Assembly: GCA_002840095.1 (NCBI GenBank)
Contig: PGZL01000010.1
Coordinates: 142,888 to 189,465 of the forward strand
Reading direction: 5' to 3'
Source of the DNA: Gammaproteobacteria bacterium HGW-Gammaproteobacteria-1
GTDB taxonomy: Bacteria; Pseudomonadota; Gammaproteobacteria; Thiohalomonadales; Thiohalomonadaceae
Length of the DNA: 46,578 bases
The notes under the pieces are model-generated. The model had not been told where the DNA came from, searched no databases, and saw nothing but the letters and a program-made list of their open reading frames with translations. Of the stretch, positions 6,860 through 15,425 are shown one piece after another. Numbering within the stretch: position 1 is the stretch's first letter; every line of letters starts with the position of its first letter. Position numbers and translations under genes: made by a program.

Positions 6860-7507
6860 GCGCGCTGTCGCGCGGTTTTATTGGGTCGGGGTTCCGCCCC
6901 CGTACGACGTGTTACTTTCTTTTGCTCGGCCAAAAGAAACTAACGAAAGAAAAGGCGCCCGGGGCGGGTTCTTCCGACGGCACGTCCGTGTGCCGACGGA
7001 AGAATGCGCGCCATCCATGGCGCGCCCCCTGCGGGCTATTCCGCCCCGGGCTGCGTTGCTCTCGGCGAGACAAAGGGGTTTGAAAATCAAGACGGCTCGC
7101 CTGACGGCATCGCGCTGGACGGTGTGCGCTGCGCGCACACGATTTTGACTTTGGGTTTTGATTTTGACGTTTGGGTTTCCCCCCGTCTGCCGCGCCGAGC
7201 ATCGCAGCCCGAATCGGATTAAGCCCGAAGGGGACCCGCCAGGGATGGCGGGTCCTCGCCTTCGCGCCAGGACGGCGCGTAGGCGAGCGCCGATTCGGGC
7301 GAGACAAAGCGGCAGGATTGCCGATTTGCACAGCCGCAGGCTGCCCGAAGGGTGAGGCACAGGGATGTGCCGAATGAAGCGCAGGGTACCCGAAGGGCGC
7401 GGGAGTCGGGCCCGCCTTTCTTTGGTTACTTTCTTTGGCGGAGCAAAGAAAGTAACACGTCGTACGGGGGCGGAACCCCGACCCAATAAATCCGCGCGTA
7501 GCGCACA
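6860..7507. repeat. Large inverted-repeat element filling a gene-free gap
   Basis: The 831-base gap between argE and the GNAT/C39 gene holds no credible gene. Near-identical inverted arms of about 95 bases lie at 6860-6957 and 7411-7507, each with GTACGACGTGTTACTTTC and its complement. Inside each arm is a smaller hairpin built on TTACTTTCTTT and AAAGAAAGTAA. The centre carries stacked hairpins (for example GCGCGCCATCCATGGCGCGC). A related module recurs at about 34946-35270. Open frames through it give basic low-complexity peptides and were rejected as genes. It looks like a dispersed non-coding mobile or structural element. Confidence 0.85.
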
Positions 7508-7539: not shown

Positions 7540-8682
7540 ATGATCCGCCCTGCCACAGCAGAAGATATCGACGCCCTGGTGGAGATCGAGAACCGCTGCT
7601 TCGATACCGATCGCCTGTCGCGGCGCAGTTTCCGGCACATGATTACCAAGGCCCATGCGGCGCTGCTGCTCGACGAGGAGGGCGGCACCGTACACGGCTA
7701 CGTGCTGGTGCTGTTCAACGCCGGCACCTCGCTGGCGCGCATGTATTCCATCGCCGTGGATCCGCAGTATCGCGGCCACGGCATCGGCCGCCGGCTGGTG
7801 ACGGCGGCGGAACAGGCGGTATTGGCGCAGGACTGCGTCACCCTGCGGCTGGAGGTGCGCATGGACAATGCCTCGTCCATTGCGCTGTACGAAGCCATGG
7901 GCTATCGCCGCTTCGGTTTCTACGACGATTATTACGAAGACCACATGGACGCCCTGCGCTACGAGAAGCGGCTGGTGCCGTCGCTGCGGCCGGATATGGC
8001 GCGGGTGCCGTATTACGAGCAGACCCTGGAATTCACCTGCGGCCCGGCGGCGCTGATGATGGCCATGGGCGCGCTGGACCCCTCCATCGAACTGAACCGC
8101 CGGCTGGAACTGCGTCTGTGGCGCGAGTCCACCACCGTGTTCATGACCTCCGGCCACGGCGGCTGCGGGCCGTTCGGGCTGGCGTTGTCGGCCCATCACC
8201 GCGGCTTCGAGGTGGAGGTGTACGTCAACGACGAGAGCGCGCTGTTCGTCGACTCGGTGCGGGCGGAGGAGAAGAAGGAAGTCATCCGCCTGGTGCAGGA
8301 CGACTTTACCGAGGAGATGGCGCAGCTCGGGTTACCGCTGCACTACCGCCGCATCACGGTCAGCGAGATAAAACAGGAATTCGCTCACGGCGCCATTCCG
8401 CTGGTGCTGATAAGTTCCTACCGCATCTACCAGGAGAAGTTTCCGCACTGGGTGGTGGTGACCGGCTTCGACGATCACTTCATCTACGTGCACGATTCCT
8501 TCGTGGATCGGGAGAAGGGCAAGACCGTCACCGACTGCGTGAACATGCCCATTCCGCAGAAAGATTTCGAACGCATGGCGCGCTATGGCAAGTCCGGCCA
8601 GCGTTCCGTGCTGATCATCCGCAAACCGCAGGCAACGACGCGCAACAGGACGGCGCGCAAGAGGTCAGCAGCAGGATCATGA
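7540..8682 (+). CDS. GNAT acetyltransferase fused to a C39-like peptidase domain
   Basis: A 380-residue two-domain protein. Residues 1-145 are a RimI-like GNAT domain: IAVDPQYRGHGIGRRLV is the acetyl-CoA loop and NASSIALYEAMGYRRFGFY the C-terminal signature. From about 155 to 365 lies a C39-like papain-fold domain. Its likely catalytic Cys is in QTLEFTCGPAALMMAMG, the His in FPHWVVVTGFDD and the Asp in IYVHDSF. The family is annotated GNAT/peptidase C39-like and is typically beside a RimK-type ligase, as here: the stop overlaps the next ATG in ATGA (8679-8682). There is no signal peptide, so it should act in the cytoplasm. I infer that it trims or acetylates a peptide or protein that the ligase modifies; the substrate is unknown. 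Confidence 0.88.
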   Translation: MIRPATAEDIDALVEIENRCFDTDRLSRRSFRHMITKAHAALLLDEEGGTVHGYVLVLFNAGTSLARMYSIAVDPQYRGHGIGRRLVTAAEQAVLAQDCVTLRLEVRMDNASSIALYEAMGYRRFGFYDDYYEDHMDALRYEKRLVPSLRPDMARVPYYEQTLEFTCGPAALMMAMGALDPSIELNRRLELRLWRESTTVFMTSGHGGCGPFGLALSAHHRGFEVEVYVNDESALFVDSVRAEEKKEVIRLVQDDFTEEMAQLGLPLHYRRITVSEIKQEFAHGAIPLVLISSYRIYQEKFPHWVVVTGFDDHFIYVHDSFVDREKGKTVTDCVNMPIPQKDFERMARYGKSGQRSVLIIRKPQATTRNRTARKRSAAGS

Positions 8683-10157
8683 CGACGCAGATTATCGTGG
8701 TGGAGGATACCGCGGACTGGAAATTCGACGGCCTCGGCTATCCGGTGGTCAACGTCGACGATTACTTCACCGGCAAGGAATACTTCAACCTCAAGCACGT
8801 GCAGGTCATCAACCTGTGCCGCAGCTACAAATATCTCAGCGTGGCCTATTACTGCTCGCTGCTGGCCGAGGCGCGCAACCACAAGGTGATTCCGTCGGTG
8901 AAGAGCATGCTGGATCTGTCCAGCAAGGCCATGTACAGCCTCAATGCGGTCAACCTCGACGAAGAGGTGGCGAAGAGCTTCCGCAAATACCGCAAGGACA
9001 GTTTTGAACGCGTGTTCGAGATGGACGTGTTCTTCGGCAAGTGCCTGTTCGAGCCGCTGGCCGACCTGGCGCGGCAGATCTTCGAGACCTTTCCCTGCCC
9101 GCTGCTGCGGGTCGGCTTCCGCCGCGCCGAGGGCGGCTGGCACATCGATTCCATCAAGCCGCTGTCGCTGCACAAGCTGGACCGGGAAAACCGCGAATTC
9201 TTCGTCGATCGCCTCAACGGCTATCTGAAGAAGCGCTGGCGCTCGCCCAAGTCGCGCAGCCAGGCGCGCTACGACATGGCAATCCTCTACAACAAGGACG
9301 ATCCGCTGCCGCCTTCCAACCTGAAGGCCCTGCAGCGCTTCATCAAGGCCGGTCGCGCCATGGACATCGACGTCGAGGTGATCGACCGCAAGGATTATTC
9401 GCGCCTGGCGGAATACGACGCCCTGTTCATCCGCGAGACCACCAACATCAATCACTACACCTACCGCTTCGCCAAGAAAGCGGAGAGCGAAGGCCTGGTG
9501 GTGATGGACGATCCGCAATCCATCCTGCGCTGTACCAACAAGGTGTATCTGGCCGAATTATTGCGCGCCAACAAGGTGCCGACGCCGCGCACGGTGATCG
9601 CCGGTCGCGGCGATCTCAAGGCGGCGGAGGACGCCATCGGCTATCCCATGGTGCTCAAGGTGCCGGACGGCTCGTTCTCGCGCGGTGTGGTCAAGGCGGA
9701 AACGCCGGAGCAGATGCGGCAGGAGGCGGACCGTCTGTTCAAGAGTTCGGAACTGATCCTGGCACAGGAATATCTCTACACCGAATTCGACTGGCGCATC
9801 GGCATCCTCAACCGCAAGCCGCTGTTCGCCTGCAAGTACTTCATGTCGAAGAAACACTGGCAGATCGTGCACCATGAATCGGACGGCACCTTCGAGGAAG
9901 GCGGTTGGAAGACCCTGGCGGTGGAGCAGGCGCCGCCGGAGGTGGTGGCTGTCGCGCTCAAGGCGGCCAACCTCATCGGCGACGGCCTCTACGGCGTGGA
10001 TCTCAAGCAGACCGAGCGCGGCATCTTCGTCATCGAGGTCAACGACAATCCCAACCTCGATGCCGGGGTGGAGGATCAGGTGCTGAAAGAGGAGCTGTAC
10101 CGGCAGGTACTGACGGAGTTCGTGCGGCGTCTGGAGCTGCGGCACCGCAACGGGTGA
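8679..10157 (+). CDS. RimK-family ATP-grasp ligase with RLAN-type N-terminal domain
   Basis: A 492-residue protein. The N-terminal half (about 1-190) resembles the RLAN domain found before some RimK-like enzymes; the C-terminal half is an ATP-grasp ligase. Visible ATP-grasp features are the lysine strand GYPMVLKVPDG, the glycine-containing loop SFSRGV, AQEYLYTEFDWRIGIL, and the metal-binding FVIEVNDNPNLD. RimK-type enzymes form amide bonds, usually adding amino acids such as glutamate to a protein or peptide. The open frame runs back to 7365, but the true start is the ATG at 8679, which overlaps the preceding stop and has AGGA upstream. Translational coupling with the GNAT/C39 gene suggests a two-gene modification system of unknown target. 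Confidence 0.9.
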   Translation: MTTQIIVVEDTADWKFDGLGYPVVNVDDYFTGKEYFNLKHVQVINLCRSYKYLSVAYYCSLLAEARNHKVIPSVKSMLDLSSKAMYSLNAVNLDEEVAKSFRKYRKDSFERVFEMDVFFGKCLFEPLADLARQIFETFPCPLLRVGFRRAEGGWHIDSIKPLSLHKLDRENREFFVDRLNGYLKKRWRSPKSRSQARYDMAILYNKDDPLPPSNLKALQRFIKAGRAMDIDVEVIDRKDYSRLAEYDALFIRETTNINHYTYRFAKKAESEGLVVMDDPQSILRCTNKVYLAELLRANKVPTPRTVIAGRGDLKAAEDAIGYPMVLKVPDGSFSRGVVKAETPEQMRQEADRLFKSSELILAQEYLYTEFDWRIGILNRKPLFACKYFMSKKHWQIVHHESDGTFEEGGWKTLAVEQAPPEVVAVALKAANLIGDGLYGVDLKQTERGIFVIEVNDNPNLDAGVEDQVLKEELYRQVLTEFVRRLELRHRNG

Positions 10158-10202: not shown

Positions 10203-13200
10203 TTACTGAGTCTTTTCTCCGCGCCTCTGCGTCTCTGCGGCAGGTATTTGACTCTGGGGCCGCCCGAGCAGCGCTGCGTTGCCGCCCACCGCGGCGGTGT
10301 TGGTGGTCACCGTCTTCTCGGCGGCGAAGCGCAGCAGGTAGTGCGGGCCGCCGGCCTTGGGGCCGGTGCCGGACAGGTGACGACCGCCGAAGGGTTGGCT
10401 GCCGACCACGGCGCCGATCATGTCGCGGTTGATGTAGACGTTGCCGGCCTCGACCCGGGCAGCGATGTAGCGGCCCACGGCGGCGATGCGCGTATGCACG
10501 CCCAGGGTGAGGCCGTAACCCAGGTGGTTGATGCGGTCGATGACGGCATCGAGGTCGTCGGTGCGGTAGCGCAGCAGATGCAGCACCGGGCCGAAGTGTT
10601 CCGTTTGCAGCAGGCGCAGGTCGTCGATTTCATACAGGCACGGCGCCAGGAACGCGCCGTGCACGCAGTCGGCGGGCAGGGGCGTGCGCGCCAGTAGCCG
10701 GCCGCAGCCTTCCAGTTCCGCCAGATGGGTTTCCAGCTTCTGCAAGGCCTCCCGATCGATCAGCGGTCCCACGTCGGTGGCGAGCAGGCGCGGGTCGCCC
10801 ACCCGCAGTTCCGCCATCGCGCCGGTCAGCACCTCGATCAGCCGGTCCGCCGCCTCTTCCTGTACGAACACCACCCGCAGCGCCGAGCAGCGTTGTCCCG
10901 CGCTGTTGAAGGCCGAGCGCAGGATGTCCGCCGTCGCCTGTTCCGGCAGGGCCGAGCTGTCGACGATCATCGCATTCTGGCCGCCGGTCTCGGCGATGAA
11001 CGGCAGGATGGGGCCGCGGCGCCCGGCCAGGCACTGCTGGATGCGGTGGGCCGTGTCCACCGCACCGGTAAAGGCCACGCCGGCCAGGGCCGGCGCCGTC
11101 AGCACGTTTTCCTCCACCAGCGTGCCCGACGCGGGCAACAGCTGCACCACCTCGGTGGGGATGCCGGCCTGATGCAGCAGCGCAATCACCGCCGCGCCGC
11201 ACAGGGGCGTCTGGTGTGCCGGCTTGGCCAGCACGGTGTTGCCGGCCAGCAGGGCCGCCACCACCTGGCCGGTGAAGATGGCGACGGGGAAGTTCCACGG
11301 GCTGATGCAGAGGAAAACGCCGCGGCCCTCGCTGCGCAGCAGGTTCTCCTCGCCGGTGGGGCCGGGCAGGGTGCGCTCGCGCAGCACCTCCAAGGCATTG
11401 ACGGCGTAGTAGCGGCAGAAATCCACCGCCTCGCGTACCTCGGCCAGGGCGTCGGGCACGGTGCGCCCGCCTTCCATGACGATGCGCGCGGCGAGGGCCG
11501 CGCCCTGCTGTTCGAGCAGATCGCCGGCGTGCCGGATCAGCGCCGCCCGCTCTTCCAGCGGGCGGCGCGACCAGACGGGCCAGGCCGCCTGTGCCCGCGC
11601 CAGCGCCGCAGCGGCCAGGTCCGGCGAGGCGATCTGCACCTCGCCGACGGTGTGGCGGCGATCGGCGGGAAACACCACGGCGCTGCGGCTGCCCCCGGAC
11701 GGCCCGGCCTGCCAGGGTTCCGCCAGGGCGTGGCGCAGCGCCGCGTGCAGGTCCGCCAGTGACGAGCCATCGTCGAGACAGGTGCCGCGGGCGGCGGTGC
11801 GTGCAGTGCCGTACAGGTCGTGCGGTGCGGGCAGGGTTGGCCGCCAGTCCCGCGCCAGCACCGCGGCAGCAGGGTCGGCCAGCAGCCGTTCCGGCGGCAG
11901 CGCCCGATCGGCGATGCGATTGATGAAGGAGGTGTTGGAGCCGTTCTCCAGCAGCCGGCGCACCAGGTAGGGCAGCAGTTCGCGGTGCCCGCCCACCGGT
12001 GCATAGACGCGGCAGGGCAGTCCCCACTGCGCCACCACGGTGTCGTACAACGCGGCCCCCATGCCGTGCAGGCGCTGGTACTCGAAGGGGGTATCGCCGG
12101 CCAGGGCGCGCACCGCGGCGATGGTGTGGGCGTTGTGACTGGCGAACTGGGGGTAGAAGTGCTGCGGCTGGGCCAGCAGCCGGCGCGCGCAGGCGAGGTA
12201 GCACACGTCGCTGTGCACCTTGTCGGTGAACACCGGATAGCCGGGCAGGCCCTGCTGCTGGGCGGCCTTGATCTCGCTGTCCCAATAGGCTCCCTTCACC
12301 AGGCGCAGGGTGATGGGGGCGCCACGGTGCGCAGCCAGCTCCGCCAGCCAGTCCAGCACGGCCGGCGCGCGCGGCTGATAGGTCTGCAGCGCGAGGCCCA
12401 GGCCGGGCCAGCGGCGCAGGGGGCCGTGCCGCGCCACCGCCTCGAAGATGTCCAGCGACAGTTCCAGCCGCCGCGCCTCCTCGGCGTCCAGGGTGACCGG
12501 AACCCCGGCGGCGCAGGCCTGCTCCAGCAGCGTCGTCAGGCGCGGCAGCAGTTCGGCCAGCACCCGTTCGCGCTGTTCCATTTCATAGCGCGGATGCAGG
12601 GCGGAGAGCTTGATGGACAGGCCGTTGCGGGCGTTGAGGTCGGTGCTGTCCGCGGCGGCGAGGGCGGCGATGGCCTCACTGTAGGCGGCGGCGTAGCGCA
12701 GGGCATCGGCCTCGCTCATGGCCGCCTCGCCCAGCATGTCGAAGGAGTGGCGATAGCGGCTGTCGCGCCCGGCGCGGGCGACGGCTTCTGTGATGGTGCG
12801 TCCCATGACGAACTGGCGCGCCAGCAGGTGCATGGCCCGGCGCAGCGCCTCGCGCACCACGCCCTCGCCGCTGCGCGCGACGAGACGCTGCAGCAGGGCG
12901 GGCGCGTCGTCGTCGAGGCGGACGATGCGCCCGGCCAGCATCAGGCCCCAGGTGGATGCGTTGACCAGTGCGCCGCCCTCCGCTCCCAGGTGCCGCTCCC
13001 AGCGGGCGCCGCCGAGGGTTTCGCGGATCAGGCGGTCGGCGGTGTCGGCATCGGGGATGCGGATCAGTCCCTCGGCCAGGCACATGAGCAGCACGCCCTC
13101 TTCGCTGGCGAGGGCGTACTCGTGCAGAAAGGCATCCAGCGGGTGGGGATGCTGCCGGGCGTGGTCGATGAGCGGGCGGCCCCAGGCCGCGATGCGCGAC

Positions 13201-13337
13201 TGCTTTGCCGCATCAAGGCGGGCCTCTTCGGCCAGGGTGCGGGCCAGTTCCCCTTCGTCCACGAAGTGGCTGGCGGCAATGGCGGCGCGCCGGCCGCCGG
13301 GCCGGGGAATGGCGTGACGGAACAGCAGCGGTTGCAT
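10203..13337 (-). CDS. putA: Bifunctional proline dehydrogenase / glutamate-semialdehyde dehydrogenase (PutA)
   Basis: Oxidises proline to glutamate in two steps: an FAD-dependent proline dehydrogenase (about 150-480, with LRLVKGAYWDSEIK and RRLLENGSNTSFINRIAD) and an NAD-dependent aldehyde dehydrogenase (about 560-1030, with FIAETGGQNAMIV and the catalytic Cys in NSAGQRCSALR). The start at 13337 has a GGAGG site; length is 1,044 residues. The short N-terminus shows no ribbon-helix-helix domain, so unlike E. coli PutA it is probably not its own repressor, and no C-terminal extension domain is evident. The last dozen residues (AAETQRRGEKTQ) are encoded by a dispersed GCAGAG repeat, so the natural terminus seems to have been replaced. 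It stands alone; no putP is visible. Confidence 0.95.
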   Translation of the reverse strand: MQPLLFRHAIPRPGGRRAAIAASHFVDEGELARTLAEEARLDAAKQSRIAAWGRPLIDHARQHPHPLDAFLHEYALASEEGVLLMCLAEGLIRIPDADTADRLIRETLGGARWERHLGAEGGALVNASTWGLMLAGRIVRLDDDAPALLQRLVARSGEGVVREALRRAMHLLARQFVMGRTITEAVARAGRDSRYRHSFDMLGEAAMSEADALRYAAAYSEAIAALAAADSTDLNARNGLSIKLSALHPRYEMEQRERVLAELLPRLTTLLEQACAAGVPVTLDAEEARRLELSLDIFEAVARHGPLRRWPGLGLALQTYQPRAPAVLDWLAELAAHRGAPITLRLVKGAYWDSEIKAAQQQGLPGYPVFTDKVHSDVCYLACARRLLAQPQHFYPQFASHNAHTIAAVRALAGDTPFEYQRLHGMGAALYDTVVAQWGLPCRVYAPVGGHRELLPYLVRRLLENGSNTSFINRIADRALPPERLLADPAAAVLARDWRPTLPAPHDLYGTARTAARGTCLDDGSSLADLHAALRHALAEPWQAGPSGGSRSAVVFPADRRHTVGEVQIASPDLAAAALARAQAAWPVWSRRPLEERAALIRHAGDLLEQQGAALAARIVMEGGRTVPDALAEVREAVDFCRYYAVNALEVLRERTLPGPTGEENLLRSEGRGVFLCISPWNFPVAIFTGQVVAALLAGNTVLAKPAHQTPLCGAAVIALLHQAGIPTEVVQLLPASGTLVEENVLTAPALAGVAFTGAVDTAHRIQQCLAGRRGPILPFIAETGGQNAMIVDSSALPEQATADILRSAFNSAGQRCSALRVVFVQEEAADRLIEVLTGAMAELRVGDPRLLATDVGPLIDREALQKLETHLAELEGCGRLLARTPLPADCVHGAFLAPCLYEIDDLRLLQTEHFGPVLHLLRYRTDDLDAVIDRINHLGYGLTLGVHTRIAAVGRYIAARVEAGNVYINRDMIGAVVGSQPFGGRHLSGTGPKAGGPHYLLRFAAEKTVTTNTAAVGGNAALLGRPQSQIPAAETQRRGEKTQ
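10217..10240. repeat. Single arm of GCAGAG repeat inside the putA 3' end
   Basis: The stretch CTCCGCGCCTCTGCGTCTCT is the CTCTGCG arm of the 8-base-word family. It lies within the last codons of putA, so the repeat is translated on the minus strand. Confidence 0.75.
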
Positions 13338-13382
13338 CGGCGACCTCCTTCCGCGCCATCGGCGCGAAATCCGCAAGGCAGC

Positions 13383-13458
13383 ATTCCGAGCCGCGAGGAA
13401 CACGGAGGCGAACGCCCAATGCAGCGGCTTATTGCCCTTCTCCGTGACTCTGCGTGGT
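13383..13458. repeat. Degenerate inverted repeat between putA and ilvD
   Basis: A left part AGGAACACGGAGGCG and a right part CTCCGTGACTCTGCG form a weak inverted pair. The words resemble the GCAGAG family. They occupy the divergent gap upstream of both putA and ilvD, so promoters must share this space; I could not place them. Confidence 0.5.
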
Positions 13459-13574: not shown

Positions 13575-15425
13575 ATGCCCGCTTACCGTTCCTGGACCAC
13601 CACCCGCGGCCGCAACATGGCCGGCGCCCGTTCCCTGTGGCGCGCCACCGGCATGAAGGACGACGACTTCAACAAGCCCATCATCGCCGTCGCCAACTCC
13701 TTCACCCAGTTCGTGCCGGGACACGTCCACCTCAAGGACATGGGCCAGCTGGTGGCGCGCGAGATCGAAGCGGCCGGCGGCGTGGCCAAGGAATTCAACA
13801 CCATCGCCATCGACGACGGCATCGCCATGGGCCACGGCGGCATGCTCTATTCGCTGCCCAGCCGCGAGATCATCGCCGACAGCGTCGAGTACATGGTGAA
13901 CGCCCACTGCGCCGACGCGCTGGTGTGCATTTCCAACTGCGACAAGATCACCCCGGGCATGCTCAACGCCGCCCTGCGCCTGAACATCCCCGTCATCTTC
14001 GTTTCCGGCGGGCCGATGGAGGCGGGCAAGGCGGTGCTGCACGAGCAGACCGTGGCGCTGGATCTGGTGGACGCGATGATCGCCGCCGCCGACAGCAAGG
14101 AGTCCGATGCCGACGTGCTCACCCTGGAGCGTTCCGCCTGTCCGACCTGCGGTTCCTGCTCCGGCATGTTCACCGCCAACTCCATGAACTGCCTCACCGA
14201 GGCGCTGGGCCTGTCCCTGCCCGGCAACGGCTCGCTGGTGGCGACCCACGCCGATCGCGAGCGCCTGTTCAAGGAGGCTGGCCGCATGATCGTGGCCCTG
14301 GCCAAGCGTTACTACGAAGGCGATGACGCCTCGGTCCTGCCGCGCTCCATCGCCACCTTCGAGGCCTTCGAGAACGCCATGAGCCTGGACATCGCCATGG
14401 GCGGTTCCACCAACACCATCCTGCACCTGCTGGCGGCGGCGGAAGAGGCCGGTGTGAAGTTCACCATGGCCGACATCGATCGCCTGTCGCACAAGGTACC
14501 GCACCTGTGCAAGGTGGCGCCGTCGATCCAGACCTATCACATGGAAGACGTGCACCGCGCCGGCGGCGTTATCGGCATCCTCGGCGAACTGGACCGCGGC
14601 GGCCTGCTGCACCGCGAGTGCAAGACCGTGCATGCGGCCAACATGGCCGAGGCCATCGCGCTGTGGGACGTACGCCTGACCGGGGATCAGAAGCGCAAGG
14701 ACTTCTTCCGTGCCGCTCCCGGCGGCGTGCCGACCCAGGTGGCCTTCAGCCAGAACAAGCGTTACGCAACGCTGGATACCGATCGTGAGAAAGGCTGCAT
14801 CCGCGACGTGGCCCACGCCTACAGCAAGGACGGCGGCCTCGCCGTGCTGTACGGCAACATCGCCCTCGACGGTTGCGTGGTGAAGACCGCCGGCGTCGAT
14901 GCGTCCATCCTCAAGTTCTCCGGTCCGGCGCGCATCTTCGAAAGCCAGGACGGCGCGGTGGAAGCGATCCTCAACGACAGCATCAAGGCCGGCGACGTGG
15001 TGATCATCCGCTACGAAGGCCCGCGTGGCGGCCCCGGTATGCAGGAAATGCTCTATCCGACCAGCTACCTGAAATCCAAGGGGCTGGGCAAGGCCTGCGC
15101 CCTGATCACCGACGGCCGCTTCTCCGGCGGCACCTCCGGCCTGTCCATCGGCCACGTTTCGCCGGAAGCCGCCGAGGGCGGCGCCATCGGCCTCATCGAG
15201 GAAGGCGATAGCATCGAGATCGACATCCCCGGCCGCAGCATCCGCGTCGCCCTGTCCGACGAGGTGCTGGCCCGGCGCCGCGCCGCGATGGAGGCCAAGG
15301 GCAAGGCCGCCTGGCAGCCGCTCAACCGTGAGCGCCCGGTGTCCGCGGCCCTCAAGGCCTATGCGGCGATGACCACCTCCGCCGCGCGCGGCGCGGTGCG
15401 GGATGTGAGCCAGCTGGAGAAGTAA
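13575..15425 (+). CDS. ilvD: Dihydroxy-acid dehydratase (IlvD)
   Basis: An iron-sulfur enzyme that dehydrates dihydroxy acids to 2-keto acids in valine, leucine and isoleucine synthesis. The 616 residues equal the length of E. coli IlvD. Key segments are [16 protein letters not shown] at the N-terminus, the cluster cysteines in [13 protein letters not shown] and [19 protein letters not shown], and the C-terminal [20 protein letters not shown] signature. The start has GGAG about eight bases upstream. It is transcribed alone, divergently from putA; no other ilv gene is present. REP palindromes follow directly after the stop. Confidence 0.97.

Follow-up and report, generated by a model that had tools for sequence, protein, structure and literature searches.

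A GNAT-DUF3335 and RLAN ATP-grasp gene pair, a candidate amide-ligation and acetyl-capping module, and its alternating partners

The window, a stretch of 46,578 nucleotides of gammaproteobacterial DNA, contains a coupled gene pair that, judged by its sequence, is a further member of a known family set, RLAN + DUF3335. What is new here is the partner logic around this pair. Comparison of relatives indicates that the RLAN ligase is the constant part, that a homologous papain-like partner is usual and occurs in two architectures, and that GNAT, sometimes found without a papain domain, alternates with GCS2 + FGase. As a working explanation, to which we give somewhat less than an even chance, the pair would be a self-contained two-gene module for amide ligation and acetyl capping that acts on free amino acids or short peptides.

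The gene pair and its domains

ORF1 and ORF2 (Table 1) are both open as the first-pass annotation had described them, with coordinates, strand and ATGA overlap unchanged and four bases common to both. Since homologous pairs adjoin each other in many lineages, the comparison indicates that both are genuine genes and not chance frames. An exact 4-base overlap was present in 16 of the 64 same-strand pairs among the loci compared here (median gap, 7 nt), and 8 further pairs in the same set were divergent or arranged in another way. Protein distances of the two genes were correlated over 72 loci (r 0.81, shared phylogeny being uncontrolled). Of 342 relatives, 80 were kept, among which the nearest with a species name was a MAG titled Thiohalomonas denitrificans (L052, RLAN 94%).

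Table 1. Positions of the gene pair, its domains and neighbouring features (window coordinates unless a locus prefix is given)
Feature	Position	Strand	Basis
ORF1, GNAT acetyltransferase + papain-like C39 (DUF3335) fusion, 380 aa	7540..8682	+	ORF call, Pfam
ORF2, RLAN + RimK/LysX-type ATP-grasp ligase, 492 aa	8679..10157	+	ORF call, Pfam
ATGA overlap, ORF1 stop / ORF2 start	8679..8682	+	
GNAT domain, RimI/Ard1-like, ORF1 residues 11-122	7570..7905	+	PF00583
DUF3335 papain-like domain, ORF1 residues 156-360	8005..8619	+	PF11814
RLAN domain of ORF2	8757..9209	+	PF14401
ATP-grasp ligase domain of ORF2, model residues 198-487	9270..10139	+	structure model, RimK PF08443
Long ORF downstream, PutA-like	10203-13403	minus	by eye
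Long ORF downstream, IlvD-like	13575-15425	plus	by eye
PA3496-family gene beside module	L034:8222-8425		
PA3496-family gene beside module	L035:10922-11155		
PA3496-family gene beside module	L057:5610-5834		
PA3496-family gene beside module	L063:9574-9849		
PA3496-family gene beside module	L064:5606-5830		
PA3496-family gene beside module	L074:1387-1623		
PA3496-family gene beside module	L089:9300-9596		

The four domain calls made earlier (GNAT, C39-like, RLAN and RimK) all scored above their Pfam cut-offs. ORF1 matched GNAT at 6.3e-19 and DUF3335, the 'Peptidase_C39 like family', at 1.7e-91 (305.7 bits against a cut-off of 25). ORF2 matched RLAN at 1.1e-49 (168.4 bits against 25) and RimK at 1.3e-11 (44.9 bits against 21), with RLAN N-terminal to the RimK-like ATP-grasp domain, the arrangement by which we recognize an RLAN ATP-grasp protein.

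Active-site positions were read from alignments of 75 GNAT-DUF3335 and 100 RLAN rows, both of which include two duplicate genomes (L033, L040). GNAT residue E105 (7852-7854) was invariant in 75/75 rows, and the column of Tyr 117 held Tyr in 42 and Phe in 32. In DUF3335, Q161, C167 (8038-8040) and H303 (8446-8448) were invariant as well (75/75), and position D319 was Asp in 68 rows and Glu in 7; we take these four to be the oxyanion Gln and the Cys-His-Asp residues. The domain thus combines the PF11814 match with all four residues expected of DUF3335, and its peptidase activity is a prediction. Residues K288, K327, D441, E453 and N455 of the ligase, presumably the nucleotide and Mg residues of the ATP-grasp fold, were identical in 100/100 rows. 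Both genes look catalytically competent; absence of catalytic residues, named at the outset as the finding that would count against the proposal, was not what the aligned relatives gave.

The two AlphaFold models had mean pLDDT values of 90.4 and 89.2, so the domains appear confidently modelled, and their relative placement is less so because pTM was 0.63 and 0.76 despite pLDDT ~90. The best structural matches of the GNAT half were RimI and Ard1 (TM 0.84-0.89, target-normalised, for RimI and Thermoplasma Ard1 chains). For the ligase half they were LysX (3vpd, Z 28.5), ArgX with LysW (3vpb, Z 28.3) and RimK (Z ~27), followed by D-Ala-D-Ala ligases, and LysX, ArgX and RimK were nearest by sequence profile too. 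Single-sequence searches of the PDB at E 1 gave no relative of the DUF3335 half or of the RLAN half; the Foldseek and VIA match lists were taken up by the GNAT and ATP-grasp domains and say little on either. Searches of phage records and viral contigs gave no match to ORF2.

Relation to described systems

The assignment to a known kind of system follows from two statements on domain fusion, one in Pfam and one in print. The Pfam note for RLAN is said to mention a GNAT fused to a papain-like peptidase; Iyer et al. 2009 reportedly predicted amidoligase systems that include RLAN + GNAT-DUF3335. PMC10318531, with reference to the amidoligase work of Iyer et al. 2009, describes DUF3335 members as often fused to GNAT domains, for which a peptide-ligase or acetylating role is suggested. 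The pair had been put forward as the best candidate for an undescribed system, a description that no longer suits it, as both RLAN and DUF3335 have curated family entries and the fusion of DUF3335 to GNAT has been published (PMC10318531). Compared with RLAN + RimK-type ligases that have a GNAT-DUF3335 partner, this locus, whose family assignment is strong, is a plain member with the same domains and the same gene pair, and nothing was found that sets it apart. The literature searched gave no substrate for any member, in agreement with the substrate having been left unassigned.

The more distant relatives resemble one domain each. LysX and ArgX, which act on LysW, resemble the ATP-grasp half (Z ~28 over 260-268 residues), whereas ORF2 has an extra RLAN domain, shares 16-22% identity with them and had no LysW-like gene seen beside it in 79 loci; its score with the LysX_arch model was 76.2 bits against a cut-off of 275.6. 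The likeness to RimK, the ribosomal protein S6 glutamate ligase, lies in the same half, and the S6 RimK model NF007764 gave 43.6 bits against a cut-off of 331. Canonical RimK was found in 119/274 genomes of the class at E 1e-60 and was absent from the window's own genome and from its congener G125. At that threshold it occurred in 49/63 RLAN genomes and in 70/211 without RLAN. Because most RLAN genomes thus also carry canonical RimK, the idea of the RLAN ligase as a RimK replacement was rejected, although the own genome is without RimK.

The GNAT half resembles RimI and Ard1, and ORF1 differs from both in its fusion to a papain-like domain. With the RimI model TIGR01575 it scored 86.6 bits, 0.2 above the cut-off of 86.4, and another locus of the own genome scored 128.3; the score of ORF1 is borderline, and it is not the best RimI of the genome, a stronger one lying elsewhere. 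On these comparisons a replacement role for either RimK or RimI is unlikely. N-acetylglutaminylglutamine synthetase (TIGR03103) also combines GNAT with ATP-grasp. This candidate was rejected at 32.8 bits against 569, over ORF1 residues 57-128 only, and TIGR03103 was not among the 25 families listed for ORF2.

Partner genes, distribution and neighbourhood

Partner sets were obtained by scanning 121 sources with HMMs built here, and 116 RLAN rows were placed on a quick tree (SH-aLRT, no bootstrap) that left out three broken or partial RLAN (L145, L148, L154) and the two duplicates. The gene calling used for the loci missed RLAN in L053. GNAT-DUF3335 accompanied RLAN in 66 of the 116 rows, GNAT-DUF3335 + DUF2817 in 10 and GNAT without DUF3335 in 8. 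A second architecture, with a stand-alone C39 and/or GCS2 nearby, was found in 23 (18 of them with C39 + GCS2 + FGase), and a branch with 100% SH-aLRT separates these rows from the rest. RLAN stood alone in 9, which is an upper bound since contig ends truncate some loci. Homology of the stand-alone C39 to DUF3335 was shown by hhalign (96.7%, E 3.8e-10), and it is from this homology and the partner counts that we regard RLAN as constant and its partners as alternating. Because the GNAT-only state needs 6 changes among GNAT types on the tree, the papain-like domain appears to have been gained or lost repeatedly while GNAT and ligase stay. Four genomes (G040, G171, G177 and G272) had no strong DUF3335 anywhere.

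A four-gene C39-RLAN-GCS2-FGase cluster was observed in L105, L114, L115, L119, L122, L124 and others, from several phyla and some Gammaproteobacteria. In L031, L106, L110, L156, L157 and L158, the GNAT-DUF3335 and RLAN genes are separated by a DUF2817 gene, whose product in L031 has an additional weak, sub-cut-off match to AstE/AspA. Strong DUF2817 matches (10 below 1e-70, out of 24 genomes at 1e-3) occurred in 4/63 RLAN genomes, each time adjacent to RLAN, versus 6/211 others, with no significant enrichment (p 0.25). Weak matches in RLAN genomes G025, G150 and G260 were not adjacent.

RLAN was present in 63/274 genomes of the class Gammaproteobacteria and in 23/56 genomes drawn as relatives, and strong DUF3335 in 44/274 (44 strong of 48 matched genomes). 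All but one of the strong-DUF3335 genomes (43/44) also hold RLAN (274 genomes; Fisher 1.6e-33, uncorrected for phylogeny). The two genes lie within 4 kb in 40 of these 43 and on different contigs in the other three; 20 RLAN genomes were without strong DUF3335. Among the 80 of 342 relatives kept, those at 45-55% identity outside the class were mostly MAGs, with record titles naming Alphaproteobacteria, Zetaproteobacteria, Planctomycetales, Bacteroidetes, Desulfuromonadales, Omnitrophota, Woesearchaeota and others.

On the minus strand upstream of the pair lie genes for acetylornithine deacetylase ArgE (567.8 bits against a cut-off of 460) and amino-acid N-acetyltransferase ArgA (691.9 bits against 344). 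Both score as housekeeping equivalogs and were rejected as parts of the system, so that we note the linkage only and claim no function for it. With these and the PutA- and IlvD-like ORFs as neighbours, the earlier remark that no target gene lies beside the pair holds within the window. Just upstream of ORF1, inverted repeat arms of 54 nt (6869-6922 and 7445-7498, 98% complementary) bracket 522 nt, in what looks like a small REP/MITE-type element; a 32-nt core (7425-7456) has 4 copies in the own genome with no mismatch.

Conserved neighbours had been proposed as the way to find a small precursor. When 918 small ORFs in 79 loci were compared at E 1e-3, no generally conserved precursor-like family emerged, a search in which very divergent ORFs could be missed; close to the window, the small-ORF clusters have the look of shared repeats. 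An ABC-ATPase-like cluster (c12, by eye, 7 loci) was scattered from -8.1 to +8.8 kb and did not lie beside the pair.

One small acidic protein family, PA3496 (NF046101), does adjoin the module in a minority of loci from several lineages (Table 1). Its genes lie up- or downstream of the module, in several cases along with a LysR-like gene. It was found in 8 loci (in L061, ~5 kb beyond RLAN) and, weakly, in one genome present in duplicate; five of six scanned proteins were over the model cut-off and the sixth scored 21.5 against 22. In the class it occurred in 60/274 genomes at E 0.01 (54 over cut-off), more commonly in those with RLAN (26/63 versus 34/211). It lay within ~2 kb of RLAN in 4 of the 26 genomes with both (G081, G128, G206, G239; by eye), versus ~0.2 expected by chance if a genome of roughly 3 Mb and a span of 20 kb are assumed. 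PA3496 was rejected as a general substrate because two of these four genomes are from one family, G206 is below cut-off, and the own genome has no match; at E 0.01 it was not detected there, in G125 (same genus) or in G240 (same family).

A Zn hydrolase was found within 4.5 kb in 51/119 loci (ArgE/DapE 16, FGase 18, DUF2817 10, M14 7), never two together. No match fell in the 674 kb farther out, a contrast that is biased and no fair control because the HMMs were made post hoc from families that had first been noticed in the vicinity of RLAN. NCBIfam models identified one ArgE and one DapE near the module, both as housekeeping equivalogs. The idea that M14, M20, FGase and DUF2817 belong to one Pfam clan was dropped after hhalign of shallow clusters gave it no support (M14-DUF2817 28%, other pairs <1%).

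Candidate functions of the module

ATP-grasp family chemistry runs from a carboxyl through an acyl-phosphate to an amide. In the module reading, ORF2 would use ATP to activate a carboxyl as acyl-phosphate and would then couple it to an amino acid at the latter's amino group; kinship with RimK, ArgX and LysX suggests an acidic one, such as glutamate. The GNAT half would acetylate an amine, probably the alpha-amine, to leave an N-acetylated product, and the papain-like half would hydrolyse or transfer the amide of the same compound. The domains, their linkage, the kept active-site residues and the partner sets are what the sequences show; from these we infer the chemistry, the order of the steps, the substrate and the product. 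The substrate is most likely to be free amino acids or a short peptide, and the product would then be a metabolite of oligopeptide-like, N-capped form, because no cis-encoded precursor was found and because GCS2 and FGase, families known mainly from small-molecule chemistry, stand in GNAT's place in the sister architecture. Given the same two observations, the post-translational peptide modification favoured by the first-pass annotation is not supported. Its mention of peptide termini fares better in part: the proteins that the GNAT and ligase domains match best in structure presumably act on protein ends, judging by their record titles. That the closest structural relatives of the two enzymes work on proteins counts against the module reading.

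Such kin (RimK, LysX/ArgX and RimI/Ard1/Naa10) speak for the main alternative, modification of a trans-encoded housekeeping protein, which is possible but on balance doubtful. The ligase would attach an amino acid to a carboxyl, either C-terminal or on a side chain; the GNAT would acetylate the newly added amine or an N-terminus; and the papain-like domain would trim or remove the tag, giving a writer and an eraser. The want of a general cis precursor in 79 loci fits this too, the extra RLAN domain could bind a protein, and PA3496 is commoner in RLAN genomes and lies beside the module in several lineages. However, PA3496 was not detected in the own genome, in G125 or in G240, the sister architecture carries GCS2 + FGase, canonical RimK coexists with RLAN in 49/63 genomes, and the own genome has a stronger RimI (128 bits).

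LysX and ArgX as top structural matches also bring to mind a route in arginine or lysine metabolism that works with a LysW-like amino-group carrier or a protecting group, in which the ligase would block an amino acid and hydrolases of the ArgE, DapE, DUF2817 or FGase type would release it. An ArgE- or DapE-type gene does neighbour the module in 16/119 loci, and FGase, DUF2817 or M14 neighbour others, but ArgA and ArgE next to the pair have the scores of ordinary equivalogs, the 79 loci showed no small LysW-like gene, and the neighbours may be inherited synteny; we consider this route quite improbable. That the enzymes mature a RiPP whose precursor is encoded next to them is highly improbable. 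Precedents exist, in that double-glycine leaders are cut off by C39 peptidases of the kind fused to ABC transporters (PMC10318531) and ATP-grasp enzymes make graspetides (PMC8939145). Against these stand the 79 loci, with no generally conserved precursor-like ORF at a depth where very divergent short ones could be missed, and the scattered ABC-ATPase-like cluster c12.

A broader extension of the module reading, which we think unlikely in its full form, would make RLAN ligases the constant centre of an acyl-capped peptide pathway from Woesearchaeota to Proteobacteria. Acetylation by GNAT in one branch and ligation by GCS2 in the other would be alternative caps, the homologous papain-like enzyme would transfer or cleave the amide, and the cap would be removed by a Zn hydrolase such as FGase or DUF2817. 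If true, such a pathway would be a further logic of amino-group protection beside N-acetyl-ornithine and LysW. RLAN is widespread, in the class as in MAGs named for other phyla, and its active-site residues are kept in the aligned rows. The partner swap between GNAT and GCS2 + FGase, with a homologous papain-like partner, narrows the tests and points to cultivable hosts, namely the plant-associated Azospirillum brasilense, which carries an adjacent pair, and Pseudomonas aeruginosa with plasmid pZYPA1927.

The plasmid gene (L167:4992-6470) is named 'RimK family alpha-L-glutamate ligase' and is without a GNAT-DUF3335 partner in the stretch. It lies near a glutamate/aspartate transporter gene, and pagP is two genes away, on the other side of an SDR gene. 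Because PA1343 is pagP (PMC7916210), the chromosomal P. aeruginosa copy of RLAN is probably PA1345. In a Cpx study (PMC12802237), a table row for PA1345 gives the name 'Hypothetical ATP-binding protein' and a site at -69, which we read as a regulatory hint rather than as a function.
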